53,198 nt of DNA from Desulfobulbaceae bacterium. GTDB taxonomy: Bacteria > Desulfobacterota > Desulfobulbia > Desulfobulbales > Desulfocapsaceae. A program made the position numbers and the translations under genes. Location of the stretch: NCBI GenBank assembly GCA_019163335.1, contig JAFLKM010000009.1, forward strand, positions 1 to 53,198. Direction: 5' to 3'. The notes beneath the pieces were generated by a model. The model was not told the DNA's origin and did no database searches. It worked only from the letters and a program-made list of their open reading frames with translations. Shown here in pieces: positions 20,320 through 35,382 of the stretch (the stretch's first letter is position 1; the number at the start of each line of letters is the position of its first letter).

Positions 20320-20958
20320 TTATCTCTTCTTCCATTCCATATTTTCGATTATTTTCATTTGTTGACTGGCGCATTCCGGACATATATCGTGACTGAAAAG
20401 AGCTTCAGAATGGGCGCTGATATACTCTTCCAGTTTCTTCCAGTCATCCTTGTCCGTTCGTATTTTATGACAATATGAGCAGATTGTGATGATCCCTTCC
20501 AACAGTTTTACCCTGGCCAACATTGACTCAAGTTCCCTGTTCAATGCCTGGAGTTCTTTGCTGCGCTGCTCAAGGAGATTGCGAGCCTGACTGAAAGCAA
20601 GGTGATTTTTAACCCGGAGACGAACCAGGTCAGCCACAAAGGGCTTATGGACGAAATCACTGGCTCCCATTTTAAGTCCATGCGCTTCACATTCAATACT
20701 CTCAAGCATGGTGATAAAAATCACCGGTATTGCATCAAGCGACGGGTCATTTCTGATTTGTCTATAGACCTCATACCCATCCATTTCCGGCATGATAAGA
20801 TCCAGAAGAATAATATCAGGAGCCTTAAGGGATATTATTTCCAAGGCTTCTCGCCCGCTTTGCGCTAGAACTGTCTTGTAATCATCTTCAAGAGAATGAC
20901 AGAGTATCTTGACGCTCAACGGTTCATCATCAACGATAAGTACAGTTTTAGGCTCCAC
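20320..20958 (-). CDS. Response regulator with coiled coil and Cys-rich tail
   Basis: A 212-residue protein. The receiver (Asp53, LLDLIMPEMDG, Lys105) is followed by a coiled coil (about 120-155) and a C-terminal region with two Cys pairs, C160/C163 and C193/C196, around KIRTDKDDWKKLEEYI. This tail is a recurrent domain on hybrid kinases and receivers in this phylum; the paired Cys suggest a metal site. The output is unknown. It has no DNA-binding domain. Confidence 0.9.
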   Translation of the reverse strand: MEPKTVLIVDDEPLSVKILCHSLEDDYKTVLAQSGREALEIISLKAPDIILLDLIMPEMDGYEVYRQIRNDPSLDAIPVIFITMLESIECEAHGLKMGASDFVHKPFVADLVRLRVKNHLAFSQARNLLEQRSKELQALNRELESMLARVKLLEGIITICSYCHKIRTDKDDWKKLEEYISAHSEALFSHDICPECASQQMKIIENMEWKKR

Positions 20959-25332: not shown

Positions 25333-25731
25333 TCAGCCAATAAGCCGCATTTTTTGCAGTTCGCTCAGCAGCTTCTGCTTGGTAACCGGTTTTACCAGAA
25401 ATGCCGCAGCACCACCTGCATAGAACGAAGTCATGACTGTCTTGGGATCATTCAGTGACGTAGTCATAATGACCTTCACCTCTTCAGGCGGGGTAACTTT
25501 CATTTCGCGCTCGAACTCCCGTATAAGGCGCAGAGCCTGTTGCCCATCCATGTTTGGCATCATAATGTCCATACATACGAGATCATACGGCTGCTTGTCT
25601 TCAAATTCCTGCCGAAATGCCAAGACTGCCTCTTCACCGTTGACTGCAATGTCGCACTCAAAATGCTCTGCCAAAAACTTGTTCAAAATACGCCGCGACA
25701 TAAAATCATCCTCTACTATCAGGCACTTCAT
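25333..25731 (-). CDS. Single-domain response regulator
   Basis: A 132-residue receiver: acidic pair EDD (7-9), Asp55 in MDIMMPNMDG, Thr near 83-85 (MTTS) and Lys in LVKP. AAAGGAGGAG seven bases upstream selects ATG 25731; a longer frame to 25800 adds 23 Cys-rich residues unlike a receiver. The sequence between acidic residues and Asp is longer than in CheY, as in stand-alone regulators of chemosensory arrays. The output partner is unknown. Confidence 0.92.
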   Translation of the reverse strand: MKCLIVEDDFMSRRILNKFLAEHFECDIAVNGEEAVLAFRQEFEDKQPYDLVCMDIMMPNMDGQQALRLIREFEREMKVTPPEEVKVIMTTSLNDPKTVMTSFYAGGAAAFLVKPVTKQKLLSELQKMRLIG

Positions 25732-25831: not shown

Positions 25832-26311
25832 TCATCCCTCAGATCTTCTTCCTTTGCCAACCAGAACGACCCCGGTTTCTGTATTCATAATAATCTTCCT
25901 GCCAACCCGTCCACCCACATCTTTGGCTATCACCGGAACCCGGAATCCTTCCAGCATCTGAAAAACGAGGGTAATATTGCGGTCTCCGATCATGAATAAT
26001 TCCAGACCTGTTCCAGCAATATTGGCCCCGCCGAATACTTTTGCAACCAGATGCTCTTGCCGACAGCCGATCGACAATACCTTGTTCAACAGCTTATCCA
26101 TTGCGATATTACCATATCTTGGCGTTGCCAACCCCTCCCCATTCCAAAGCGGCAACATGATATGGTTCATTCCTCCCCTGCGGGCCACCTTATCCCACAA
26201 GCAGACGGAAACGCAGGAGCCAAGCACGGTACTGATGGCATATTCCTCCGGCTCGGCGAAAAGAGTGCCGGGATAGAGAAAGTGCTTGTTAATCGGCTCA
26301 ACTGAATTCAC
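25832..26311 (-). CDS. cheD: CheD-like chemoreceptor glutamine deamidase
   Basis: A 159-residue CheD. The family core GSCVSVCLWD gives nucleophile Cys33, and GGMNHIMLP gives His50, spaced 17 residues as in characterised CheD; Ser27/Thr28 sits where the third residue (Thr) is expected. CheD deamidates receptor glutamines and normally works with CheC or the CheR/CheB methylation system, none of which is encoded here. It starts two bases after the stop of the kinase-like gene upstream. Confidence 0.93.
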   Translation of the reverse strand: MNSVEPINKHFLYPGTLFAEPEEYAISTVLGSCVSVCLWDKVARRGGMNHIMLPLWNGEGLATPRYGNIAMDKLLNKVLSIGCRQEHLVAKVFGGANIAGTGLELFMIGDRNITLVFQMLEGFRVPVIAKDVGGRVGRKIIMNTETGVVLVGKGRRSEG

Positions 26312-26313
26312 CG

Positions 26314-27207
26314 TTATTCTGCCTCATTCATATCATCAAAGAGAAACAGATTGCCGGCTTCCGAGAATGAATCCTGGTCATCCGAAATTGAGCAGGGGGG
26401 AATCGTTACTATAAACCGAGTTCCCTCGCTCGTAGAACTGGTCAAACTGATATTTCCCTGCATAAGCTCCACAAGAGCTTTAGTAATGCTCAGCCCCAGG
26501 CCATGCCCCAGATGAGAGCGGGTTGTTCCGGTATCGAGCTGCACGAAGCGATCAAAGATGCGCTGTTGATCTTCCGGTGCAATCCCAACGCCATGATCAT
26601 GAACAACAATTTGCAGAGTACCTTTCTCGTCAACGGATAATGAAACTTCCACAATACCGCCATTGAGACTGTATTCGATCGCATTAGCCAGCAAGTTGGA
26701 GATAATAAGCTGAAATTTTTCAGCATCGACGGCAACAATGCAGTCGTCCTGACTGGCTGAATACACCAGTTGAACCGATACATTTTTTTTGGCAGCAGTA
26801 TGATAAAAAGAATCTACCTGGTTACGCAAGGCTGATGCAATATGAATATTTACACAATTCAGAGTCACCTCACCCGCTTCCAGTTCAGCCGCCATAAAAA
26901 TGTTCCGCAATTGAAAATCAAGGGTATTGGCCTCAGCTCCAATCAATGAAGCAAGGGAAACAAGTTCCTCGTTTTCAGCACCGACAAGAGCTAACTGCCC
27001 TGCCAATCCCATGATCGCGGTGAGAGGATTATTGATTTCATTGCGGATATTTGACAGGAAGTTGCTTTTGAGCGATTCAGAACGTTTCAGGCGTTCGTTC
27101 ATTTCCAGCAGTTTTCGGTTCGCCACACTTAAATCAGAAAAAGCCTTGCGACTTTGGGCAAAACGAGTTGACAATTCTTCAATCAAAGCATCATCGGTAA
27201 TATTCAT
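26314..27207 (-). CDS. Histidine-kinase-like protein lacking the phosphoacceptor His
   Basis: A 297-residue soluble protein: a coiled coil (about 10-48), a HisKA-like helix and a complete-looking HATPase domain (NLLANAIEYS, DHGVGIAPED, GHGLGLSI). At the H box the expected SHE is RNE (residues 55-57), so the phosphoacceptor is Asn56, codon AAT at 27042-27040. A single base change would restore His (CAT). It could be a non-phosphorylating ATP-binding partner, a cross-phosphorylating kinase, or a recent mutant. It is coupled to cheD (2-bp gap). Confidence 0.88.
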   Translation of the reverse strand: MNITDDALIEELSTRFAQSRKAFSDLSVANRKLLEMNERLKRSESLKSNFLSNIRNEINNPLTAIMGLAGQLALVGAENEELVSLASLIGAEANTLDFQLRNIFMAAELEAGEVTLNCVNIHIASALRNQVDSFYHTAAKKNVSVQLVYSASQDDCIVAVDAEKFQLIISNLLANAIEYSLNGGIVEVSLSVDEKGTLQIVVHDHGVGIAPEDQQRIFDRFVQLDTGTTRSHLGHGLGLSITKALVELMQGNISLTSSTSEGTRFIVTIPPCSISDDQDSFSEAGNLFLFDDMNEAE

Positions 27208-27240: not shown

Positions 27241-28164
27241 TCAGGCTTCGATGAGACCAAAAATTTCCTTGGAGAGAGAATCCGGATCAAATTTTGCCAC
27301 AAACTTGTTGGCACCGGCCTGTTCTGCTTTCAGGATGTTGGTCGGGTTACTCATCGAGCTGTGAAGGATGATTTTCAAATGTTGGTAATTGGCATGCGCT
27401 CGCAATGTGCGGCAAAAGGTAAAACCATCCATTCCCGGCATTTCAATATCCGAGATCACCAGATCAACTTGTTCATGTTCTTTTTCGAGATACTCAAGTG
27501 CTTTATCGGCGGACATTACAGCAGTATTGGTGAAACCGATTCTGTCCAGTACCGATTGCAGCAGCATGATTGCGGTACGGGAATCATCAACGACAAGAAT
27601 ATGATGTCCATCGCCTTTTCCTTCATTCTCAGTCATGGCAGCGCTGGAAAAGTCCTTTCCTATGCCGACAATATTGGAAAGAATGGTTTCAATATCCAGC
27701 AGCAGTATCGCTTCACCACCCTCTGCATAGGCGATTGCAATCAATGACGGGGCATTCACACCCTCCGGCTTGTGGATATCAGACCAGCTCCGCGTCAGAA
27801 GTGTATCCGGAGCATGAACAATAAAAGCTGTCAGACTGCGGTTGTATTCACAGATGATGATGTAGCCCAACTCTTCACGGAACTCCTTGGAGGGGAGGCC
27901 TATTGCCTCGGAGAGGTCGATAACCACCAGGGCGCTGCCTCGAAAATCAAGCGCTCCCTTAACTGCCGGATGTGAATTGGGCATGCGGTCAATCCTGCGA
28001 GGACATTCTAATATTTCAATAATCTTGAAAACGTTGATGCCGTAGAGCTGTTTGTCCGTTAGCCGGAAGGTCAGCATCTCCAATTGATTTGATTGGGAAA
28101 GGCTGGTACGTTGCAGTGCTTCGTCAAGTGATGATGCCATTTTAGACTCCCGGTTCGTATTCAT
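27241..28164 (-). CDS. cheV: CheV-type coupling protein (CheW-REC)
   Basis: A 307-residue protein with an N-terminal CheW-like domain (about 28-170; FRLTDKQLYGINVFKIIEI, FRGSALVVIDLSEAI) and a C-terminal receiver (about 190-305; VVDDSR, acceptor Asp in ISDIEMPGMDG, Lys in KFVAKF). CheV links receptors to CheA and adjusts kinase output when phosphorylated. In a cluster without CheR/CheB it could provide the adaptation step. Confidence 0.94.
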   Translation of the reverse strand: MNTNRESKMASSLDEALQRTSLSQSNQLEMLTFRLTDKQLYGINVFKIIEILECPRRIDRMPNSHPAVKGALDFRGSALVVIDLSEAIGLPSKEFREELGYIIICEYNRSLTAFIVHAPDTLLTRSWSDIHKPEGVNAPSLIAIAYAEGGEAILLLDIETILSNIVGIGKDFSSAAMTENEGKGDGHHILVVDDSRTAIMLLQSVLDRIGFTNTAVMSADKALEYLEKEHEQVDLVISDIEMPGMDGFTFCRTLRAHANYQHLKIILHSSMSNPTNILKAEQAGANKFVAKFDPDSLSKEIFGLIEA

Positions 28165-28444: not shown

Positions 28445-28924
28445 TTATAAACTCTGCCCCTGCAACGCTGCCAGATCTGCGCTGGAAAAAACATTGTCAA
28501 TATCCAGAATCATCACAAACCGCCCATCATATTTTCCCATCCCTTTGAGAAAATCAGAGTTTAGAGAGGTGCCGCTTTGAGGCGCAGCCACGATCTGCTC
28601 CGAGGCCATATCAACCACCTCCTGAACCGAATCTGCAAGAGCGCCAACCACCATCTTCTCGCCAGCCATCACTATCTCAACCACAATGATACAGGTATTA
28701 ACTGTCTGCTCAGATTCCATCATCCCGAATTTAAGCCGCATGTCGATTACCGGCACGACACTTCCGCGCAGGTTAATCACCCCGCGCATAAAATTGGGCG
28801 TCTGCGGAACCTTGGTGATGGAAGTCATCTCCAGAATTTCCCGTACTCTCTCGACATCGATTGCAAACACTTCTTCTGCCAATCTAAAGGTCAAATACTG
28901 AGTTGTTTCCAGTTTCTCCTCCAT
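28445..28924 (-). CDS. cheW: CheW chemosensory coupling protein
   Basis: A 159-residue CheW: EETTQ-like N-terminus, YLTFRLAEEVFAIDVERVREILEM, then MRGVINLRGSVVPVIDMRLKFGM, all typical of the SH3-like adaptor that joins receptors and CheA. GGAGGG nine bases before ATG 28924 selects this start over ATG 28933, which abuts the ribosome binding site. The 280 bp between cheW and cheV hold only unsupported short frames. Confidence 0.95.
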   Translation of the reverse strand: MEEKLETTQYLTFRLAEEVFAIDVERVREILEMTSITKVPQTPNFMRGVINLRGSVVPVIDMRLKFGMMESEQTVNTCIIVVEIVMAGEKMVVGALADSVQEVVDMASEQIVAAPQSGTSLNSDFLKGMGKYDGRFVMILDIDNVFSSADLAALQGQSL

Positions 28925-28996
28925 AAAGAGCATCCCTCCTTCATTTAGTGTGCATTCTGCAAATGCTCAAATATCACCACTAACAAACTTCCAATC

Positions 28997-31156
28997 TTAC
29001 TTATGAATGGGCGCAAGCCTTTCCAGTCCAACCCAGTCAAGCTGCTCGAGCGCCTCTTTCAGGGCAGCCGCCTCTGCCTTCACAAGCGGTGACCATAGAC
29101 CGCTGTCAGGCTTCTTGCCTTCGTGGCAAAGATTCTGAATACGGTTAGCAGCGGCCGCCAATCGCAGGCCGCCAATGTTGGCGACAATTCCTTTCAGGCC
29201 ATGGGCGCACCCCATAATATCCTTGAGATCATCACTCACGAGTTTTTCGACAAGTTGATCGCCAACAGTGGCATAGCCGGTCAAATACATATCGATCAGC
29301 TCACGGTAAATATTCAGATCATAATCAAAATTTTCTAGAACCGAGCCTGGCTCTAACACTGGTAATTCACCCAGCTCTGATTTATTCACATCTGTTTGAG
29401 CGGATAACTCCTGGTGCTTGCTGAGGCGTTGCAGTGCTTCCAGTAGTTTGTTTTTTGCTACCGGTTTTGCGAGATACCCATTCATACCGACACTGACGCA
29501 TTTTTCCTGAATCGCCTTAAGTGAATAGGAAGTCAGCGCTATTACCGGAACAGTGCCGCCGGTGACACGTTCTTTCTCGCGAATCAAGCGGGTTGCTTCA
29601 AATCCGTCCAGCACCGGCATCAAAATATCCATCAAGACGACATCAAATTCACCATCATCAAATTCGTCTACTGCTTCCTTGCCGTTACCGACTAAAACAA
29701 CCTGGCAGCCGATGTCTTCCAAAAGATGTTTCAGGGCGATCTGCTGCAGCAGGTTGTCTTCGGCCACCAGTACTTTAAGCGTTGGCAGCGGGGTGGGGGC
29801 TTCATCCAGCACAAGATTAACATCTGCTGAAGAGGCGTCGGTTTCCGGAAGCAACGACACCGTACAACAGACTGTGCGTCCCCGCCCACGCTCTGAACGA
29901 ATCAACAATGTTCCGTTTAACTGTTTAATAAGTATCGCGGCCAGGCCCAATCCGGTTGTGAAGTCTGCTCTTTCACCAACGGTGGCAAGATAATCGGAAA
30001 TCCCCTGGTAACTGTCATTAGGGATGGCACTGTTTTCCACACGGATATTAAACTGGATCGCCATTTTGAACGGGGTACGCTCCTTTATGACAACGGAAAG
30101 ATGCGCCAATCCTTCTCCAAATCGGCAACTGCCATCAAAAACTGCTTTCAGCGCGTAGCCAAGCTTTCTGACATCACCACGAAAATACTTCGGCAGATAG
30201 TCAGGAATGGTTAAGTTTGTAGTGGCCGTAACGGATTCCAGCAGAGTGTGGACAGAAAAAACTTCTTGAACCAGCGGAGTACGGGAATCATGAGTAAATA
30301 CGTGCATCTGTTCAATGATGGTTTCTGATTCGGGAAAGAGCATCTGGACATCGCGTGCAGCCTGAAGTGTAATGCGAAGTTGCGCCTGTTCTGCCTGCAC
30401 TTTTGTGATGTCGTGGAGTACGAGAAGCGTCCCAAACATTCCGTCTTTAAGAGTCATCGGCACACAAATAACACGATAGATTCTTGATGATGTGTCCGGC
30501 AATAATCCTGTCAAAATGCCATTCCAGGGGGTTTGATCCTGTACGGCTTTTTCAATCTCCTGGGGATACGTTAAGCCCTGGGGAGCAAAGAAACGTCTGG
30601 AAATAATACTGAATTCAGGGGCGGAAGAATTCTCGATCCCCATAATTTTAGCCGCTTCATCATTTACAAAAGTCACAATGCCGTCAGCATTCACAAACAA
30701 ATGACTAAACGGCGACTGCATAAAGAGCTCCGACCGGTCATTGTTCTGCTGCTGTTTCAGGGTTTCCAACCTCAACGCCTGCACAACTTGGCAACATTTT
30801 TTGAAAGCCAGGATAAAGGATTGCTCGCTAAAAGGTGGCTCCAGAACGGCAAGCGCGCCAACAGTCAGCGCAGCCTTAATCGTCTCTAAATTCCCGGCGG
30901 CCAGAAATACCAACGGTACGACAGGAGAGAACTCTCGTATTTTTTCAGCCGCGGCAATGCCGTCAATACTTCCAGGGCGATGACAGATAAAGATCACCTC
31001 CGGCTTCGCCGTCGGCGGCAGCGACAGCATTTCTTCCACAGTATCAGACACAGTCAGACAATCAGTCTGTGCAAATAGCAGCGGCATAATCGCTTCACGC
31101 CAGTCATCTGACCCACCGGAAAGCAGCGCGACCCTGTAGTTTTTTGATTCGCTCAT
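28997..31156 (-). CDS. Degenerate hybrid kinase: pseudo-REC, PAS, pseudo-HATPase, REC, HPt
   Basis: A 719-residue protein. Residues 1-125 look like a receiver without the phosphorylatable Asp (FICHRPG in place of the Asp motif). A PAS domain (about 145-255) follows. The kinase region is eroded: THDSRTPL (His289) recalls an H box, but the N-box Asn and DxGxG are missing, although GLGLA remains (402-406). The C-terminal receiver (Asp510) and HPt domain (AHGLKG, His652) appear intact. It may accept phosphate from CheA on its receiver or pass it on by its HPt, without kinase activity of its own. Confidence 0.88.
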   Translation of the reverse strand: MSESKNYRVALLSGGSDDWREAIMPLLFAQTDCLTVSDTVEEMLSLPPTAKPEVIFICHRPGSIDGIAAAEKIREFSPVVPLVFLAAGNLETIKAALTVGALAVLEPPFSEQSFILAFKKCCQVVQALRLETLKQQQNNDRSELFMQSPFSHLFVNADGIVTFVNDEAAKIMGIENSSAPEFSIISRRFFAPQGLTYPQEIEKAVQDQTPWNGILTGLLPDTSSRIYRVICVPMTLKDGMFGTLLVLHDITKVQAEQAQLRITLQAARDVQMLFPESETIIEQMHVFTHDSRTPLVQEVFSVHTLLESVTATTNLTIPDYLPKYFRGDVRKLGYALKAVFDGSCRFGEGLAHLSVVIKERTPFKMAIQFNIRVENSAIPNDSYQGISDYLATVGERADFTTGLGLAAILIKQLNGTLLIRSERGRGRTVCCTVSLLPETDASSADVNLVLDEAPTPLPTLKVLVAEDNLLQQIALKHLLEDIGCQVVLVGNGKEAVDEFDDGEFDVVLMDILMPVLDGFEATRLIREKERVTGGTVPVIALTSYSLKAIQEKCVSVGMNGYLAKPVAKNKLLEALQRLSKHQELSAQTDVNKSELGELPVLEPGSVLENFDYDLNIYRELIDMYLTGYATVGDQLVEKLVSDDLKDIMGCAHGLKGIVANIGGLRLAAAANRIQNLCHEGKKPDSGLWSPLVKAEAAALKEALEQLDWVGLERLAPIHK

Positions 31157-31255: not shown

Positions 31256-32530
31256 TCAAAATAACTCAATAGCAGGCAATCCCGCGCCGGTGGATTGAGC
31301 GGTACCAGTCGCCCTGGCATGAACTCGACGTTGGTCTTCCATAACATATTGATCAAACACGTTCTCAACTTCAAACAACTTCTCTTTCATCAAGACGCTG
31401 TCATAATTGCCGGAGGAGATGACCGTGTTTATTTCCTCAATATTCCTGGAGAGCACCGCCATGATTCCAATCACCCGCTCAATTTTCTGCCGACCAATAT
31501 CCTGAAACTGGATACTCCCCATGGCATCCATCACCATTGAATCAATACTCTCCACATGACTGCGAAGGGCACCAACCGTCGACATAACCAAATCCTGCAA
31601 CTGATTCATGGTTGAACCGAGTGCCAAGAGCTGTTTTTTGAAGGCATCCAGCCGTTCGCTTTCCAGCTGCATCTCAACAACGGCGTCTCTATCCGAGAAT
31701 TCGCGGTTAATCAGCTCTGCCATATCCGTTATCCCTTTACCGACCTGGGTGGCCGTTTCATCAACAGATTTGGAGAGGCGCCGCACTTCATCGGCAACAA
31801 CGGCAAAACCACGTCCAGATTCACCAGCTCGGGCTGCTTCAATGGTAGCGTTCAGGGCCAGCAGGTTCGTCTGAACGCTAATATCCCGGATCTGATTTAC
31901 CAGCTCGCTTAACTGCTTAACACTGTCGACGATTGACTTGACCCGCTGCCGTTCCTGTTCAAGTTCAGCTCCACGCCCCTGCAAGCGATCATCTATGGCT
32001 AAAACCATGCTGGTATTGGACTCCATCAATTCGTTTGAACGATCCAGCGTGGCAGAGGTTTCTTTGACGAAAGAATCCATCTCATCGCCTAAGCCATTGA
32101 CGTTACCGTCAATGGACTGCAACATCATTACCAACCCTTCGGCGGCCTGACAGGTATCAGAAACGATGTCATCGAGATGACCACGATTGAGCGTAACGGT
32201 TTTCTGGATTGTCTTACTACAGTCAGCTATGACTTCAGAAAACTGCTCATTAATCAAAGAGGCGGCCCCGGAAAGGTTTTCACAAGTAAGTTCGAAGTGC
32301 TCCTGCAACTGCTTCAGCGCGACCATACCAAGCCAGAATATCAACGTTGTAACCGTTGCCGCTAGACCGGACAGCAGAGCAAGAGCAATGAAAGATGTAC
32401 CATTTACAACAAGCCAGGCAGCACCCAAAATGACGAAGAACGATCCGAGCCATACTATCGGGGCGATAATCAACCTCTTAGTGGTCAGCCAGAGTGGCAG
32501 CGCGGGAATTTTCTCAGTTTTAACGTGCAT
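31256..32530 (-). CDS. Methyl-accepting chemotaxis protein without a ligand domain
   Basis: A 424-residue receptor. Two adjacent membrane helices (about 20-45 and 48-72) have almost no periplasmic loop, so it must sense from the membrane or cytoplasm or act with another sensor. The long coiled-coil signalling domain has the conserved tip [18 protein letters not shown], with [15 protein letters not shown] following. No C-terminal CheR-docking pentapeptide is seen. It is the only receptor in the island and lies between cheY and the degenerate hybrid kinase. Confidence 0.94.
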
Positions 32531-32536
32531 TAGATC

Positions 32537-32905
32537 TCATGCCCCTGGGAGAAGTTTTTTGAGTATCGCCATTAAATCTTCATGTTTAACCGGCTTAACC
32601 AACCACCCTGTAGCACCAGCAGCACGGGCCTCGTTGCGTTTTTCCTGCTGTGATTCGGTGGTCATCATCAGAACCGGCATAAAGCGGAACGCCTTGTCCT
32701 TCTTGACCTCTTTGATAAGGGTGATGCCATCCATCCCAGGCATGTTAAGATCGGTAATAAGAATGTTGGGTTTGATCGTTGCCAGTTTTTTAAGGGCAGC
32801 ATCACCACCTGTGGCAGTTTCAACGGCATACCCTCCCTTCTCCAAAATGGCCTTCATACTCATTAACAGCGTGGTTGAATCATCTACCAGTAATACAGTC
32901 TTCAT
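32537..32905 (-). CDS. cheY: CheY-like response regulator
   Basis: A 122-residue single receiver. DD 8-9, Asp52 in TDLNMPGMDG, Thr82/Thr83 and Lys104 form the full phospho-switch set. It lies between the STAS gene and the MCP and is the most direct CheA target. Whether it acts on a flagellar motor, a pilus motor or another receiver cannot be told; no motility gene is in the window. Confidence 0.95.
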   Translation of the reverse strand: MKTVLLVDDSTTLLMSMKAILEKGGYAVETATGGDAALKKLATIKPNILITDLNMPGMDGITLIKEVKKDKAFRFMPVLMMTTESQQEKRNEARAAGATGWLVKPVKHEDLMAILKKLLPGA

Positions 32906-32984: not shown

Positions 32985-33254
32985 TCAACCAATCTCCCGT
33001 AAGGGGAAGGGTGCAGTGGTCACCTCAAAGCACATCATCCAAAATCTATCCTCCGGCCAAGCCACAACCGGAACATTTGCGGTCAGTAATATTTGCAGCA
33101 ATGCAGTGTGCAGGTGCTCTAATCCAGAAAGATCAACCGAGCCCCCAGGGTTTTCAAGCAACATCGCCAACAGCTTATCCCCTTCATCCGGAGAAGTTAC
33201 GCCGCTGATATGAATAACTGCGGTACCTCCTGAATTATCAAGGCTGATTGGCAT
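32985..33254 (-). CDS. STAS-like small protein coupled to CheA
   Basis: An 89-residue alpha/beta protein with HISGVTSPDEGDKLLAML and VDLSGLEHLHTALLQILL, resembling STAS domains (anti-sigma-factor antagonist fold) that accompany chemosensory clusters in related bacteria. The usual phosphorylatable Ser/Thr of the STAS signature is not obvious. Its start overlaps the cheA stop by 17 bp, indicating translational coupling. The role is probably as an assembly or scaffold component, by inference. Confidence 0.8.
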   Translation of the reverse strand: MPISLDNSGGTAVIHISGVTSPDEGDKLLAMLLENPGGSVDLSGLEHLHTALLQILLTANVPVVAWPEDRFWMMCFEVTTAPFPLREIG

Positions 33255-35382
33255 TTCTTATAACCTCCTGCATATTAAGTATAAAAGTGATCGAGCCATC
33301 ACCCAGAATGGTAGTACCATTGTAATAAAGATGATTATGCAGCAGACTGGCCAACGGTTTGACAACGACATCACTTATGCCTTGAAAAGAATCTACGATA
33401 AGCGCCACTATGTCACCCTGCACATTGACCACAACCGCCGAGAATCCCGCTTTGGGGGCTCTTTCTTCTTCAATGGCGAGCTGCGCGGCCAGAGAGTAGA
33501 GCGGCAAAAGTTTACCGCGCACCTCTAGACTTGGCCAGGTGTTGCCAGCTGTTACCCGTGAAAGAGGGACGGACACCATGCTTTCAACGACATCATCGGC
33601 AGGAATGCCATAGGTGCATTCACCCAGGCGAACAACAAGAATCTTGGAGATCGCCATACTCATCGGAAGTGTCAGGCGCATTCGGCTTCCTTGGCCTGGA
33701 GTGCTAAAGGCACGGACACTCCCACCGAGAGAATTAACCATGCTCAACACAACATCCATGCCAACGCCCCGTCCGGAGAGGTCGGTAACGGTATCATTGG
33801 TGGAAAATCCGGGCGCCATTATTAGCTGCACGGCCTCTTCATCACTCATGGCGGCGGCGGTTTCGGCGCTGACAACACCTTTTTCTATGGCTTTTCGTCG
33901 TATTCTGGCAGGATCAATTCCCCGGCCATCATCCTCAACTTCGACAACAATGTTGGATTTATCCTGAAACGCCTGCAGGGTGATGATGGCCGTTTCCGGT
34001 TTACCAGCCGCAACCCGCTCTGCTGGCGTTTCGACGCCGTGATCAAGGCTGTTGCGCACCATATGGACGAGAGGATCACCAAGCAGGTCAATAACATCTT
34101 TGTCGGCCAGTGTTTCTTCACCCACCATGACCAGGGAGACTTTTTTATCCAGCTTCCTGGAAATGTCCCGGACTAACCGAGGAAAACGCTCAAACACTCG
34201 TGAAGCCGGTAACATGCGCATTTCCAAGGCGATATCCTGAAGTCCGGAAACGATATTGCTGATGGTGCCATGCCGGAGGTCGATTTCTTCGGCCAGTTTC
34301 GGAACTCCATAAATCGTAGAAGCTCGCTCTCCCAGGTAGGGCAGGCTGTTCTTGGCAATAATTATCTCGCCGACCAGATTCATCAGCGTGTTGATATGCT
34401 CCTGATTGACCCTGATGTAAGTAGTTTTTTTGGTGCTGGTTTCTGCAGTAATTGCAGGTTCCGGTTCGGCTTCGGTCAGAGTGGAGACGGGCTCACCAAC
34501 GGGTATATTTAGGGTTGCAGGAGTTTGCACTGCTTCCAACAGGTCTGGCGAAAAAGGGAGCGACACAATTTGATCCTCGACATAGGCAAACACATCCCGG
34601 ATCACCTCATCGACAGCAGTAGCAACAGCAAAAAAACTCAGGTCACAGACAAACGGATCATAGCCGTCATCAAACGGTACCTCTGACTGCTTGACCACAT
34701 CAAGCAGCACTAAGCCGGGAATGGTGTGGATCAGGCTGATCGGATCATCACCAAAGAAGAAAGCGTCAGGAACGGGGGTGTAACAGAATGCTGTCAGGAC
34801 ATCATCAGATGAGGAGGTGGCAAGAAATTCTTTATGTGAAGAATCAAGACTGATCAGCCAGGCGCGCAGAATTGGTTCAAGGTGGTTAACTTCCACCACT
34901 TCTGTCACAAGTTCTAACTTACTGACGCATTCGGCCCCCGATCCGTCTTTCATTCCTTTCAGAGCAGTTATCAATGGAGCAGATTCGTCCTGAGCACCGC
35001 TGGGAATTGCCCCGGTAGATTCGACGATGTCCAGCCAGCTACCAACCTGATCAAGCACTGCCAGAAAAAGGTCGGTCATCTCTGAATCGATGGCCTTCTC
35101 GCCGTTTCTGATCAGCCCCATCAAATCTTCGGCGGCATGGGTCAGAGTAGTAATGGCTGCATATTCCGGAAATATCCCGGAGGTGCCTTTAAGGGTATGA
35201 AAAGAGCGGAAAATTGAGTTGATAACTTCCGGATCGTGGGATTTCTTTTCAAGATCAAGCAGCCCTCGTGCGGCCAGTTCACAATGGTCGCGTCCTTCAA
35301 GTACAAATTGTATTGCAAGAGACGATAAACCCAAAAGCGAATCTCCTTCTTTTTTCTTGGCTGATTCAATATTGAAGTGCAA
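33238..35382 (-). CDS. cheA: Chemosensory histidine kinase CheA
   Basis: A 714-residue CheA, first gene of the island operon. P1 carries His62 in FHTLKGTSG. A divergent region (about 180-290; YTPVPDAFFFGDDPISLIHT, TPG-like) replaces the classic P2. P3 dimerisation (INTLMNLVGEIIIAKN), the P4 ATPase (HMVRNSLDHGVE, DDGRGID, GRGVGMDV) and P5 CheW-like domain follow. The start is TTG 35382 with an in-frame stop six bases upstream and no clear ribosome binding site. Insertion-sequence debris begins only 36 bp upstream, so the original promoter or leader may have been lost or replaced. Confidence 0.94.
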   Translation of the reverse strand: MHFNIESAKKKEGDSLLGLSSLAIQFVLEGRDHCELAARGLLDLEKKSHDPEVINSIFRSFHTLKGTSGIFPEYAAITTLTHAAEDLMGLIRNGEKAIDSEMTDLFLAVLDQVGSWLDIVESTGAIPSGAQDESAPLITALKGMKDGSGAECVSKLELVTEVVEVNHLEPILRAWLISLDSSHKEFLATSSSDDVLTAFCYTPVPDAFFFGDDPISLIHTIPGLVLLDVVKQSEVPFDDGYDPFVCDLSFFAVATAVDEVIRDVFAYVEDQIVSLPFSPDLLEAVQTPATLNIPVGEPVSTLTEAEPEPAITAETSTKKTTYIRVNQEHINTLMNLVGEIIIAKNSLPYLGERASTIYGVPKLAEEIDLRHGTISNIVSGLQDIALEMRMLPASRVFERFPRLVRDISRKLDKKVSLVMVGEETLADKDVIDLLGDPLVHMVRNSLDHGVETPAERVAAGKPETAIITLQAFQDKSNIVVEVEDDGRGIDPARIRRKAIEKGVVSAETAAAMSDEEAVQLIMAPGFSTNDTVTDLSGRGVGMDVVLSMVNSLGGSVRAFSTPGQGSRMRLTLPMSMAISKILVVRLGECTYGIPADDVVESMVSVPLSRVTAGNTWPSLEVRGKLLPLYSLAAQLAIEEERAPKAGFSAVVVNVQGDIVALIVDSFQGISDVVVKPLASLLHNHLYYNGTTILGDGSITFILNMQEVIRNANQP

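Follow-up and report, generated by a model that had tools for sequence, protein, structure and literature searches.

NRII H139N is reportedly a phosphatase-only mutant. In the bifunctional HisKA kinase CrdS, replacement of the phosphoacceptor His by Ala (H371A) removes kinase activity while phosphatase activity remains, though reduced (the half-life of CrdA~P is 2.6 min with the mutant, 53.5 min alone and 0.7 min with the wild type), and Ala in place of the Asn at the +4 position (Asn375Ala) nearly abolishes phosphatase activity (CrdA~P half-life of 47.6 min) and spares the kinase (available excerpts of PMC3510030). The phosphatase does not survive loss of the His in every case, as shown in the same excerpts by PleC H610A, in which both activities are lost, and by the reduced activity of CrdS H371A. 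DivL is a HisKA-HATPase_c protein in which the phosphoacceptor is replaced by Tyr; it carries PAS sensor domains, has a role in the cell cycle, binds DivK~P and can act without kinase activity, and the available text of its source describes it as having no phosphatase activity either (PMC4211667). Among chemotaxis proteins, CheC of Bacillus subtilis is a reader and weak phosphatase of CheY~P that also binds CheD (PMC3513319, in part), and the related CheX carries an acid-amide pair spaced ExxN (PMC3510030, in part). The available text of Tran et al. 2008 reports three Geobacter genomes without CheZ and Geobacter Type 2 clusters that contain cheD together with ORFs of unknown or other assigned function, and that text holds no description of the ORF discussed here (PMC2577667).

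Here we describe a pseudo-histidine kinase tied to chemotaxis adaptation, which we call NKIN. We know of no answer to the question of what controls CheD if its gene has no neighbour encoding a CheC partner, and a conserved kinase-dead kinase tied to CheD provides a concrete gene for that question. NKIN is encoded by an ORF of 297 aa with an ATG start (26314..27207) in the window, i.e., the whole stretch of 53,198 nucleotides that was analysed; this ORF and all other features located below lie on the minus strand. Its H box reads FLSNIRNEINNPL. The preliminary description of this DNA had reported Asn instead of the phosphoacceptor His in a kinase-like ORF beside cheD, and this is confirmed: the codon AAT at 27040..27042 (plus-strand bases ATT) encodes Asn56, which falls on the HisKA phosphoacceptor position because the Pfam HisKA domain (PF00512, E 4.1e-7) covers residues 47-112. 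The modified H box R-N-E-I-N-N-P (residues 55-61; 27025..27045) keeps both E57 at +1 and N60 at +4, the latter being the HisKA phosphatase position (PMC3510030, in part). The HATPase_c domain (PF02518, E 9.9e-30) covers residues 161-270, and residues 2-45 (27073..27204) form an N-terminal helical part with conserved positions, as judged from sequence, Pfam and the structural model. The ATPase motifs had also been described as intact. This is true of the N-box Asn pair (171, 175), of D204/G206/G208 and of glycines 234/236/238, all of which are invariant in the first 81 members of the family, but not of the N-box Lys: in the N box NLLANAIEYS (residues 171-180; 26668..26697) this position is Glu178, a swap directly visible in the alignment with GacS (7z8n) from the PDB search. 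The N-box Lys has a functional role (PhoQ K392).

NKIN therefore has the HisKA dimerisation domain and HATPase_c of an active HisKA kinase (by Pfam and predicted fold) without the phosphoacceptor His or the N-box Lys, the second of which is usual but not universal in such kinases. Like the pseudo-histidine kinases of the DivL kind, it combines the histidine kinase fold with a phosphoacceptor that is replaced across orthologues, but it differs from DivL in having Asn at that position, in lacking any sensor domain recognised by Pfam, and in its pairing with cheD. With bifunctional HisKA kinases of the CrdS type and HK853 of T. maritima it has in common the DHp and ATPase domains, the +1 Glu and the +4 Asn/Thr; however, CrdS H371A was engineered, whereas the His of NKIN was lost by evolution across the whole family, usually along with the N-box Lys. 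CheA resembles NKIN in having a kinase-type ATPase domain encoded in che clusters, but its Hpt, H-kinase_dim and CheW-like domains are absent from NKIN (no Pfam match at E 0.001). The action of CheC with CheD and its reading of CheY~P are what we propose, by analogy, for NKIN, although the fold of NKIN is different and no CheC/CheX domain (PF04509/PF13690) is matched at E 0.001. Likewise, the pair E57-x-x-N60 resembles the ExxN pair of CheC, CheX and FliY in possible working only, and we treat the likeness as analogy because the NKIN pair sits in a HisKA helix. No description of the family was found among the papers listed in searches of the open-licence literature, and NKIN reached no curated NCBIfam cut-off among the best 25 of 82 families.

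The preliminary description had left a choice between a functional pseudokinase and a recent inactivating mutation. Inspection of orthologues beside cheD supports the former: the phosphoacceptor column is Asn in 108/108 distinct NKIN members (157 member sequences), the most divergent included, and these members span Geobacteraceae-type bacteria, Nitrospirota, Bacteroidota and others. The same column is His in each of the 110 distinct other kinases that are not gapped here, and a further 27 have a gap. The codon AAT is one base from CAT, as would be expected if an ordinary kinase had recently been inactivated or misread by sequencing; however, with Asn shared by every distinct member across phyla and a single change on the tree, both the mutation and the sequencing error are refuted, and we give such an explanation practically no credence. 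An alternative conserved His that might serve as acceptor is likewise lacking at the H box, where one member alone (L204, IHNEINNPL) has His one position ahead of the Asn. Arg or Lys precedes the Asn in 107/108 members, and 93 of the 108 other kinases that are not gapped at that position have Ser; the family can be recognised by SNI[RK]NE with an adjacent cheD. The +1 Glu is kept in 106/108 members, the +4 position is Asn in 102, Asp in 3 and Ser in 3, and at the N-box Lys position 94 members have Glu, 8 have Gln and 6 have Lys, as compared with Lys in 91/112 other kinases with a residue there. As Asn occurs in every member read, we regard NKIN, from its sequences, as an old specialised non-kinase; that the family is kinase-dead is well supported. 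The divergent Nitrospirota members L196 and L197 read NQVNSP, having lost both the +1 Glu and the +4 Asn, and retain cheD.

Members are clearly separated by score, the lowest reaching 271 bits and the highest non-member 208 (211 in another search). No His-bearing orthologue beside cheD that could represent the ancestor was found, the next-best kinases scoring at most 208 bits (211 in the other search) and carrying His where they have a residue at the phosphoacceptor column. In a quick tree from which the H-box columns had been removed, the NKIN family lies on one side of a branch with SH-aLRT support of 100, and a single change of state is enough to account for the His/Asn column, such that the family is apparently of single origin. 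It should be noted that this tree samples 88 of the 108 members and, from the 108 other kinases that were eligible, the 40 with the highest scores, and that the program warned of long branches meeting, those of L196 and a second sequence with the outgroup side. The initial contig scan started from six seed peptides, and of the 192 loci obtained the best 80 were retained, a set that favours Asn because one of the six, NIRNEINN, contained Asn. An NKIN profile built from 37 members (the window and initial-scan loci) retrieved a check set of 76 members from Geobacterales and Nitrospirota, and all 74 of those read (L145-L218) have Asn, the two others being one of two copies in G350 and the member in G398. 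The 108 distinct members consist of 81 from the window and initial-scan loci and 27 new ones, the two sets overlapping.

Linkage to cheD is as constant as the Asn. In 108/108 distinct members cheD lies immediately downstream on the same strand, the gap between NKIN and the CheD domain being 5-203 bases (median of 30). In the window, CheD (25832..26311, GTG start; Pfam and subtype profile) begins 2 bases after the NKIN stop and belongs to a CheD subtype linked to NKIN. Among 141 genomes of the order examined, this subtype occurs in 53, namely all 51 genomes with NKIN and 2 others (Fisher p 1.7e-36, with relatedness ignored), and it forms a separate score class of at least 164 bits, the next CheD reaching 95 apart from fragments. 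In the two exceptions (G273 and G274), the NKIN profile has no match at E 0.001 within ~4.5 kb of cheD; in G273 an ORF reading as an MCP comes after cheD. The Cys and His of the CheD motif, which have a functional role, are conserved in 106/106 segments of partner CheDs complete enough to be counted, and Trp51 and Asn52 (profile numbering) are each found in 106/106 partner CheDs as against 3/31 other CheDs read. NKIN and the CheD subtype thus form a two-gene module, a CheD partnership that is well supported. No NKIN-CheD fusion occurs among the loci read, and direct binding between the two proteins, as suggested by their linkage, is in our view about as likely as not.

Around this module the window encodes a chemotaxis cluster consisting of CheA (33238..35382), a short ORF weakly matching STAS, a CheY-like receiver (32537..32905, an ORF with similarity to the receiver parts of CheV and CheB queries), an MCP-signalling-domain receptor (31256..32530), a REC-PAS-REC-Hpt protein, CheW (28445..28933), a CheV-like CheW-REC protein (27241..28164), NKIN, CheD and a single-domain response regulator downstream of cheD (25333..25731), all other assignments with coordinates being from Pfam. 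The stop of the CheV-like gene is separated from the NKIN start by 33 bases. The CheY-like receiver is a possible substrate of NKIN. With one CheR and one CheB of L104 as queries, the window (1-53198) showed no CheR, and CheB similarity only at the receiver level. The REC-PAS-REC-Hpt protein (28997-31156), in which an ATPase domain can hardly be made out (HATPase_c at E 0.019, which is below the cut-off), is perhaps a second degenerate kinase. Elsewhere in the window, a response regulator (20320-20958) has a C-terminal part with a CSYC...CPEC cysteine pattern and weak Pfam matches only.

Across the family, 85 loci are flanked by 3.5 kb or more, and in 60 of them other che genes are near NKIN, mostly CheB (55) and CheR (51). 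The remaining 25 have cheD adjacent, and their flanks gave no match to CheA/W/R/B/V or MCP at the chosen thresholds; this count is a maximum because L095 and L100 have MCP-like neighbours by looser comparison. The suggestion in the preliminary description that the protein is specialised for the array therefore holds in part: cheD is its constant partner, but up to 25/85 loci are without other che genes. These neighbourhoods also bear on the possibility that NKIN acts as a dominant partner of another kinase, through mixed dimers with a true HisKA kinase or by docking on CheA. The HisKA dimerisation domain recognised by Pfam and present in the model, together with the che genes at the 60 loci, would suit such a role, but the constant neighbour is cheD and not a kinase, as many as 25 loci offer no other che gene within reach, and CheA has a different dimerisation domain (H-kinase_dim). 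We consider this explanation quite improbable. In favour of the partnership with CheD, the NKIN-cheD pair is retained outside che clusters, as it is between dnaN and gyrB in five Nitrospirota loci (L073, L077, L079, L086 and L087), all belonging to the 25 without another che gene; the flanks were scanned by Pfam in L079, and DnaN and GyrB were matched nearby in the other four.

The reading that we tentatively favour, somewhat short of an even chance, is that NKIN is a kinase-dead phospho-receiver reader, and perhaps phosphatase, that works with CheD in the manner of CheC. The change from His to Asn, usually accompanied by that from N-box Lys to Glu, would make NKIN unable to autophosphorylate at the normal site, while the receiver-gripping half of a bifunctional HisKA kinase would be retained. 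The DHp domain would bind a phospho-receiver such as CheY~P, the +4 Asn would position a water for removal of the phosphate, and the nucleotide-bound ATPase domain would set the conformation of the protein. NKIN would bind CheD or let it go depending on whether the receiver is phosphorylated, and would in this way tune receptor deamidation and array activity, a job with CheD equivalent to that of CheC with CheD in Bacillus subtilis. With the His change fixed and the +4 Asn kept, a kinase-dead phosphatase or phospho-receiver reader is what analogy with the mutants predicts; if this is true, NKIN is a natural case of the mutant result, a bifunctional HisKA protein without its His and with its phosphatase kept. 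Binding of a receiver is the more secure part and is probable, while phosphatase activity may well be present, though we hold it slightly doubtful. It is unlikely to be a universal role of NKIN because 6/108 members are without the +4 Asn, two of them also without the +1 Glu, and all six keep cheD.

The predicted single-chain model shows a DHp-ATPase core (mean pLDDT of 80.6), for which complexes of HK853 with its regulator (Z 22.5-23.3, rmsd 5.7-7.4, 214-221 aligned), DivL (Z 23.0, rmsd 6.4, 225 aligned) and ZraS (Z 22.5, rmsd 7.9, 231 aligned) tie as best matches; hence, the fold is silent on the choice between a phosphatase and a sensor like DivL. On this second possibility, NKIN would have no phosphatase activity and would only sense phospho-receivers: it would bind CheY~P or CheV~P and, through contact alone, alter how active CheD or a partner kinase is or where it is located. 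DivL sets a precedent for such a protein and is among the tied fold matches, members with Asp or Ser at +4 still adjoin cheD, and in the available account of Bacillus subtilis CheC its binding to CheD outweighs its phosphatase activity (PMC3513319). However, Asn at +4 in 102/108 members is seemingly more than a docking surface needs, and we regard the pure sensor as a credible but doubtful explanation.

Against the favoured reading stands the presence of other proteins of this kind in a majority of the genomes with NKIN. At least one match to CheX, CheC or CheZ was obtained in 37 of the 50 NKIN genomes searched at E 0.001, some of them below the family cut-off: CheX in 32 genomes (23 over the cut-off), CheC in 30 (30) and CheZ in 8 (5). 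All three were absent at this threshold in 13/50 genomes, six of which are Bacteroidota. Among these six, G262 has a CheC-like gene in its NKIN operon (L084) that was missed by the genome search, and L102 and L106 have, by reading, a similar protein; both Bacteroidota operons scanned (L084 and L104) encode a CheC-like protein. NKIN is the sole candidate among CheC/CheX/CheZ-like kinds in 7 non-Bacteroidota genomes. A general replacement of CheC, CheX and CheZ by NKIN is not supported, in view of the 37 genomes with at least one match and the CheC-like genes of the L084 and L104 operons. The CheC-like proteins in these and similar Bacteroidota loci (L104:8628-9236, L084:7951-8589) are 203-213 aa long and encoded downstream of a cheY-like gene, that of L104 giving a CheX match below the cut-off and that of L084 a CheC match; the L104 type, read by eye, seems to have lost the Glu of its first ExxN-like site.

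The distribution of NKIN is uneven. Profile searches found it in 1 of 257 genomes of the window's own class, the window's own, in 51/141 genomes of the order of a Geobacteraceae relative (taken as Geobacterales), in 23/245 genomes of the phylum of a Nitrospirota relative, and in 1/395 genomes of the phylum of a Bacteroidota relative, this one being the genome on which the search was centred, such that Bacteroidota are rare carriers. The window's NKIN nests among Geobacteraceae-type sequences in the quick tree. A mis-binned contig is judged the less likely explanation, since the tetranucleotide composition of the window is closer to ~96 kb from other contigs of the same genome (r 0.97) than to pooled loci of five Geobacteraceae relatives (r 0.89), a comparison of stretches of unequal length that is not proof. 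The block at 20-30 kb that holds NKIN and cheD has a lower r of 0.87. The region was likely acquired by horizontal transfer rather than contamination. On a broader and rather unlikely view, a single evolutionary conversion turned a histidine kinase into a CheY~P reader/phosphatase that is kinase-dead and that became, with a co-evolved CheD subtype, a portable module passed between phyla as a second, independent counterpart of CheC-CheD.

Finally, a C-terminal tail motif GNxFxF (residues 285-290; 26338..26355) is present in 92/108 members and lies where the model has low confidence and the chain is probably disordered (pLDDT below 50 at residues 282-296). Conservation in such a part suggests that the tail is a docking peptide, perhaps a CheD pseudo-substrate, a CheY-binding peptide or a CheR/CheB-tethering peptide.
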